Origin: Desulfobacterales bacterium
GTDB taxonomy: Bacteria > Desulfobacterota > Desulfobacteria > Desulfobacterales > Desulfosalsimonadaceae
DNA length: 64,000 nucleotides
NCBI GenBank assembly: GCA_007134875.1
Contig: SLJY01000002.1
Span: 1 to 64,000 of the forward strand
Direction of reading: 5' to 3'
The position numbers and the translations under genes were made by a program. Shown one piece after another: positions 16,498 to 51,885 of the stretch; positions within the stretch are counted from its first letter, which is position 1; each line of letters starts with the position of its first letter. The notes under the pieces are model-generated. The model saw nothing but the letters and a program-made list of their open reading frames with translations, ran no database searches and had not been told where the DNA came from.

Positions 16498-16635
16498 CGC
16501 TTATCTGGCGTTCCCCCCCGCCGTCGAATCCGACAGCAGGGTTACGAAATCGCAATCGCAATCGGGATCGAAAGCAAAACCGCATCATCACCCGGAGTCA
16601 CCTGAAGGTCGTAAAAAATCGCTAATCCGATCGTT

Positions 16636-19351: not shown

Positions 19352-19496
19352 TCGAAATCGCAATCGGGATCGGGACCGGGATCGAAACCGCATCAACATA
19401 AAAAAATCCAAACAAGTTCCTTGATCCCTGCAAAGTCAGGCGGTGTTGAGGGCCGTCGAATAAAAAAGCCGATTTCGATTTCGATTGCGATTTCGA
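19352..19496. repeat. Family-E hexanucleotide-type inverted repeat between archease and rtcB
   Basis: TCGAAATCGCAATCG (19352-19366) and CGATTGCGATTTCGA (19482-19496) are perfect reverse complements; arms are built from AATCGN units. Confidence 0.8.
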
Positions 19497-27831: not shown

Positions 27832-27838
27832 TAAGCTA

Positions 27839-28144
27839 TATAGTGGCCGAACGAAAACCGTGATTCTTCGTCAAAGTCAAGGACGGCAAAAATTTTAAAC
27901 CCGGGAATACCTGGCGTATTTTGAGGATTCAAATTTGATGGCCTCGTAAAAATTCGCAACCCGACGACTTTGTAAGAGGCCCAAAATCAAGGCTTGCGCG
28001 ATTTTAGAAGAATTGAAAGTACTTAGCGTACGTGAATTTCTTCGGAAATCGCGCGTAACGCAGATATCGGACTTTTACGAAGCCGTCAAATTTGAGCCGG
28101 AATTAGAGATTGGTGAAAAAGACGGCTTTCGTTCAGCCACTATA
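27839..28144 (+). repeat. Family-B palindromic element interrupted by a family-A element
   Basis: Outer ends TATAGTGGCCGAACGAAAACCG...GACGGCTTTCGTTCAGCCACTATA; the A element occupies 27937-28087. Confidence 0.9.
27937..28087 (+). repeat. Family-A element nested in family B (151 bp)
   Basis: GATGGCCTCGTAAAAATTCGC...GGACTTTTACGAAGCCGTC flanked by perfect AAATTT direct repeats (27931-27936 / 28088-28093). Confidence 0.93.
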
Positions 28145-28244
28145 CATCGTTACAGATCTGGCACAAAAGTAAGCAAGTGGTACTGGGAGTCATAATTGTA
28201 TGAGTTCTATTAATTAATCACCGTAACGTTTTAAGGGAGGAAGT

Positions 28245-45117: not shown

Positions 45118-45179
45118 TTATAAACAGTGGCTGAACGGAAGCCGTCTTTTTCGCCAATTTCTGTGTCAGCCTTAAATTT
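45118..45179 (-). repeat. Family-B end fragment abutting family-A copy
   Basis: TTATAAACAGTGGCTGAACGGAAGCCGTCTTTTTCGCCAATTTCTGTGTCAGCCTTAAATTT is the reverse complement of the B right end up to the A insertion point. Confidence 0.75.
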
Positions 45180-45377
45180 GATGCACTCGTAAAAGTCTCG
45201 ATCTGTCGGCTTTGTAAAAAGTTCAAGATCAAGGCTTGCGCGATTTCGAAGAATACAGAGTATTTGGCGTACGTGTATGTTTACAAGGCGTAAGCCGCAA
45301 ATCCTGAGATATCGCGCGTAACGCAGATATTGGACTTTTTTAAAATCCGTCGGATCGCGGCTTTTTACAAGCCTGTC
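45180..45377 (+). repeat. Family-A element, longest copy (198 bp)
   Basis: GATGCACTCGTAAAAGTCTCGATCTGTCGGC...GTCGGATCGCGGCTTTTTACAAGCCTGTC; preceded by a family-B end. Confidence 0.88.
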
Positions 45378-51745: not shown

Positions 51746-51885
51746 GTGGCCGAACGAAAGCCCGGATTTTTCGTCAAGGTCAAGGACGGCGAAAATTTTA
51801 ACCGCAGGAATAATTGGCGTATTTTGAGGATTAAAATTTGAGCCGGACGAAGAGATTGGCGAAAAAGACGATTTTCGTTCAGCCG
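51746..51885 (+). repeat. Family-B palindromic element, uninterrupted copy
   Basis: GTGGCCGAACGAAAGCCCGGATTTTTCGTCAAGGTCAAGGACGGCGAAAATTTTAACCGCAGG...GGCGAAAAAGACGATTTTCGTTCAGCCGCG. Confidence 0.88.

Follow-up and report, generated by a model that had tools for sequence, protein, structure and literature searches.

Between pth and hppA the window (the whole stretch of DNA analysed, 64,000 nucleotides) contains one repeat element inserted into another at 27837-28146, with all features on the plus strand unless stated otherwise. The outer element belongs to family B and is split into a left part (27843..27936) and a right part (28088..28140). It is flanked by a 6-bp target duplication, recognised from its sequence and the B consensus TANNTA, that is imperfect, as the left copy TATATA (27837..27842) differs by one mismatch from the right copy TATACA (28141..28146). 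The inner element is a 151-nt member of family A (27937..28087) with GATGGCC...GCCGTC ends, and its hairpin core (27981..28070) is a full match, at 63.8 bits, to R1, a covariance model derived from ten cores of types A, B, C and others. A is bordered by a 6-bp target duplication of its own, AAATTT, with the left copy at 27931-27936, the last bases of the left B part, and the right copy at 28088..28093. An uninterrupted B copy (51746..51885) provides the empty counterpart; it carries a single AAATTT at 51834-51839 and a hairpin core (51774..51859) that scores 101 bits with R1, and both halves of the interrupted B are 88% identical to it.

The left B part terminates in ...GAGGATTCAAATTT, A starts with GATGGCCTCGT and finishes with ACGAAGCCGTC, and B restarts at 28088 with AAATTTGAGCCGGAATTAGAG / AAATTTGAGCCGG. 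The initial annotation had placed A exactly between two copies of AAATTT that are represented once in the 51746 paralogue, and this is what a direct reading of the sequence at both loci gives. The duplication proper is 6 bp at this locus, and the longer string (TC)AAATTTGA shared by the A/B junctions arises because the ends of A are themselves GA...TC. The proposal of a transposition-type insertion is likewise borne out by the duplication of 6 bp, by the paralogues that lack an insertion, by the steady AANNTT target of A and by the pth-hppA neighbourhood of ten relatives, in which both A and B are absent. The same annotation dated A activity after the spread of B, an order that holds at this locus but gives no proof that A is the younger of the two families. 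The A element at 27937 is a diverged copy whose nearest subfamily lies at 88-92%.

Both families have the traits of miniature inverted-repeat transposable elements (MITEs): they are short (151 nt for A and about 140 nt for B), lack a transposase gene, possess terminal inverted repeats and occupy many sites at high copy number. Both fold into long hairpins (z = -6.8 for B and -5.2 for A). Their own genome, a 2.88-Mb draft in which the window is contig C122, contains at least 40 copies of B at 87% identity or more and at least 40 copies of A at 78% identity or more, and the A-end pattern matches 580 times genome-wide versus 5 times for a reversed control pattern, which disposes of the idea that the repeats arose by chance. 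A copies are flanked by a constant 6-bp duplication with the consensus AANNTT and B copies by one with the consensus TANNTA; in 6/28 cases TC precedes the A target, as it does at the right end of A itself. A search of the elements against Rfam returned sub-threshold matches only, none above the gathering threshold of any family, and a plasmid search with B gave no match. Among viral contigs the B core had no match and the A core had one, L300 (IMGVR_UViG_3300000563_001001), a viral-collection contig in which the core begins as in A and the right end resembles B; the contig may stem from a bacterium or from a phage that carries such elements.

A further B copy in the window is represented by its right half (45125..45181, minus strand), which holds A at the same AAATTT in the opposite relative orientation; the other half of this B was not found, and the A element (45180..45352, plus strand) has an imprecise right end. 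Insertions of A into B were surveyed by chaining profile matches over 783 kb, comprising the window and 40 tiles of its own genome taken from contigs known to be long or to bear B, and therefore not a random sample. At least nine events involve the AAATTT of the right arm of B (W27937, W45174, C33:63.7k, C9:25.9k, C76:0.3k, C188:19.9k, C134:23.9k and two in C227). Six of these nine have B on either side of A, which runs in the direction of B in three of them and against it in the other three, and the occurrence of both orientations at this site marks the insertions as independent events. The right-arm AAATTT of B is thus a recurrent hot spot for A, used in both orientations. Other B positions that hold A are AATATT, AAGCTT, ACGGTTT and AATCCCT, the last across the ends of contigs C17 and C227. 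The break between the right end of G000:C17 and G000:C227:1-346 falls inside one A, and the B that spans it appears to carry two A insertions at different positions.

Further A copies occur next to, or apparently within, one another. Pairs of A lie head to tail about 6-11 bp apart at L037 (G000:C109:6840-7014), L040 (G000:C221:4511-4815) and G000:C134:99-142, an arrangement that looks like the outcome of an A entering the target duplicate of its neighbour, and at L036 (G000:C37:14645-14794) the left flank of an A resembles the interior of another A. The element is also asymmetric, in the copy at 27937-28087 as in others, with its end sequence present twice in the left arm (GATG..CTCGTAAAAAGTC, then GACGGCTTTGTAAAAAGT) and once in the right. 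Window positions 16545-16590 and 19353-19398 carry a diverged repeat with GAAATCGCAATCG-like units, which is unrelated to A and B.

The presence of A at the same position in several B copies could be read as the signature of one composite A+B element, of which the 51746 copy would be a precise deletion derivative. This is highly improbable. The best 40 B copies in the genome match B nearly end to end, apart from some that are shortened, and 0/40 are interrupted; A and B are therefore not one unit, and the case in which most B copies carry A, which the initial annotation had singled out for checking across the genome, is not what is found. In addition, A sits inside B in both orientations and at other B positions, and mostly lies outside B with duplications of its own, so that a fixed position and orientation of A in most B copies does not describe the data. 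The concentration of A at one site raises the separate question of what attracts it. A cruciform or hairpin structure might draw A to the right-arm AAATTT, rather than the sequence (AAATTTGAG as a linear, non-palindromic site), and the numbers lean that way, given at least nine right-arm events versus no A recognised at the left-arm AAATTT of B in the 783-kb sample and, by a rough count with crude ORF masking, an A end at about 2 of some 60 further intergenic AAATTT sites. Attraction by structure is nonetheless doubtful, since AANNTT is the duplication motif of A at its other sites too, and the right-arm AAATTT is followed by GA, like the junction TC-AANNTT-GA of A itself, so that an extended sequence preference would explain the bias too.

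A and B are, judged by their sequences, distant relatives that form two branches of one superfamily sharing a hairpin core of about 86 nt. B positions 29-114 reappear in relatives at about 90% identity inside an element with wholly different ends. The centre of A aligns to the B core region with a score of 62.5 versus a shuffle maximum of 59.5, a weak pairwise signal over an 86-nt region, and the two cores have TCAAGnTCAAGG and ACGCAGAnATTGG in common. The A-type copy L219 falls on the branch of the core tree between A and the rest, a position that supports homology of the A and B cores. R1 finds the core in 49/60 near genomes (E <= 1e-5) and in 80/396 genomes of the phylum, representing 58/247 genera (E <= 1e-7), and all of the matches listed are full length. 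Covariation is strong: among 93 aligned matches both-side changes occur in 22/27 pairs, and double-changed cells number 303, compared with a mean of 93 after shuffling and no more than 56 in slid alignments, counts that lean toward the structure because the alignment was fitted to it. The length of the core is fixed across many families, and internal-loop residues are conserved although unpaired (TCAAG.TCAAGG opposite ACGCAGA.ATTGG). The elements show no orientation bias relative to genes, which leaves a cis-acting RNA role unsupported. Many contigs of these draft genomes end at such elements, which probably interrupt the assembly there; in the G056 draft many contigs start 11-30 bases from a core, which suggests that recently spread identical copies broke this assembly.

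At least five distinct types of ends surround the core, besides singletons. Type A ends (GATGCACTCGTAAAAAGTC) are associated with the 6-bp AANNTT duplication and type B ends (GTGSCYGAACGAAAACC) with the 6-bp TANNTA duplication, type C ends (GTGTCCATCCAGAAATSAG) with 6 bp that are mostly TANNTA, and type D ends (GAGACCTTTGAAAAATG) with exactly 5 bp without a motif in 6/13 genuine copies, about 29 A elements caught by the loose D pattern having been left out of the count. Type H ends (GGGTGTCTTGAAAAATT) have a weak association with 4 bp, seen in three copies of nine, and singleton ends are AAATCCGGTTTGAAAA (L199), AAATTGTGCTCAAGAAA (L210) and AAAGTGGTTTCAAAAC (L216). The target duplication thus tracks the ends and not the core, and one core has therefore apparently been moved by several unrelated transposases. 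On the core tree A forms a single clade and the end types change at least 16 times, where 4 changes would be the possible minimum. The tree is built on 86 columns and leaves many forks open, and some of these changes could be imitated by recombination among copies. The starred branches alone require 4 changes for B, 5 for C and 2 for D.

Complete insertion sequences (IS) with matching ends were found for two of the core end types, ISNCY for C and IS5-like for D. The genome G056 contains L244, an IS of 1675 bp whose ends are of the C type; it is flanked by a TAGATA duplication and encodes an ISNCY transposase (443 bits; cut-off 325). L264 represents this IS read from the opposite strand (TATCTA), and L266 and L267 from Desulfosarcina cetonica have C-type ends as in L244 and a TAATTA duplication. 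L238 is a 1427-bp IS with the D-type ends GAGACCTTTGCA that is flanked by a 5-bp duplication, and its IS5-like transposase has an NCBIfam score of 132.7, just under the cut-off of 140. The association of the same core with the ends of unrelated IS suggests that its lineage repeatedly changed partner. Searches for a transposase or IS with A or B ends returned none, and PF01609 had no match in the own assembly. Repeats are often missing from draft genomes, and the absence of an A or B partner is therefore weak evidence. Candidates for an autonomous A in the 783-kb sample amounted to three end pairs that look like chance, and two end pairs in the window that might have delimited an autonomous B enclose LPS-type genes and are separate B remnants.

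Taken together, A and B very probably belong to a non-autonomous, MITE-like superfamily in which the ends set the transposase and the target, in which one member has inserted into another, and which has swapped partners repeatedly. In such a system the conserved core of about 86 nt would lie inside terminal arms that select the transposase and hence the duplicated target. The first step would have been the entry of B between pth and hppA, which produced a TANNTA duplication. A would then have been placed, by a transposase working in trans on its ends, into the right-arm AAATTT of B, which fits AANNTT, with duplication of 6 bp, and the right-arm AAATTT of other B copies would have been struck repeatedly and independently. 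Across the phylum the core lineage may have switched its transposase partner many times over. We infer three parts of this history, namely movement in trans, the transposases that serve A and B, and the way in which ends are exchanged.

Retention of the core would, on this history, be owed to its folded structure. It is possible, though somewhat short of an even chance, that the core is a selected nucleic-acid structure and a dedicated hitchhiker, which persists throughout the phylum by acquiring available IS ends and whose folded internal loops are needed for spread or tolerance whichever transposase acts. The main rival treats the core as passive filler that recombination has made uniform. 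It would have been kept by recent spread, horizontal transfer and gene conversion, its ends would have been swapped by ordinary recombination, and its compensatory changes would stem from template switching that corrects palindromes and not from selection. Hairpins are prone to template switching, the elements lack the orientation bias mentioned above, and core identity within single genomes carries no clear-cut signal of end exchange, all of which is compatible with a passive core. Palindrome correction should, however, erase the unpaired internal-loop residues that are conserved here, and the fixed length of the core in so many families also counts against a passive core, so that passive retention is regarded as rather unlikely.

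MITEs are normally seen as decayed copies of one IS. A nested MITE insertion is by itself ordinary, whereas it is unusual for one conserved non-coding core to have been moved, as it apparently was, by several unrelated transposases. This would make it possible to test whether a passenger can form an independently evolving lineage, by what route it acquires both of its ends and what the structure contributes to mobility. Like the REP and REPIN sequences moved by RAYTs, A and B are high-copy extragenic palindromes. REPINs are not known to leave a target duplication, whereas A and B leave duplications of 6 bp and are 140-150 nt long. The ISNCY elements (L244, L264, L266, L267) have the same GTGTCC.TCC ends and 6-bp TANNTA-type duplication as the C elements, but at 1675 bp and with a transposase they have only about 16 terminal bases in common with them; with B they share the duplication consensus and the GTG.C tip; IS with B ends were looked for and not found. 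The IS5-like L238 has the ends and the 5-bp duplication of the D elements, from which it differs by its transposase. Bacterial MITEs in general (reviewed in PMC10969869), among them the QMITEs of Coxiella (PMC5896051), are short, non-coding elements that occur in many copies, fold into strong hairpins, bear terminal inverted repeats and duplicate their targets. A and B resemble them in all of these respects and differ in that their core is common to elements with different ends and duplications, a case absent from the searched review text (PMC10969869). No description of a conserved core with swapped ends was found in the open-access literature, judged mostly by titles and abstracts. A parallel in mosaic structure is offered by the TIMEs, Tn3-derived miniature elements that form mosaics and are likewise non-autonomous, with recombinable ends and interiors and duplications of 5-6 bp (PMC4133298). 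The arrangement is nevertheless reversed, as TIMEs combine constant ends with a variable interior, whereas the A/B superfamily combines a constant interior with variable ends (PMC4133298).
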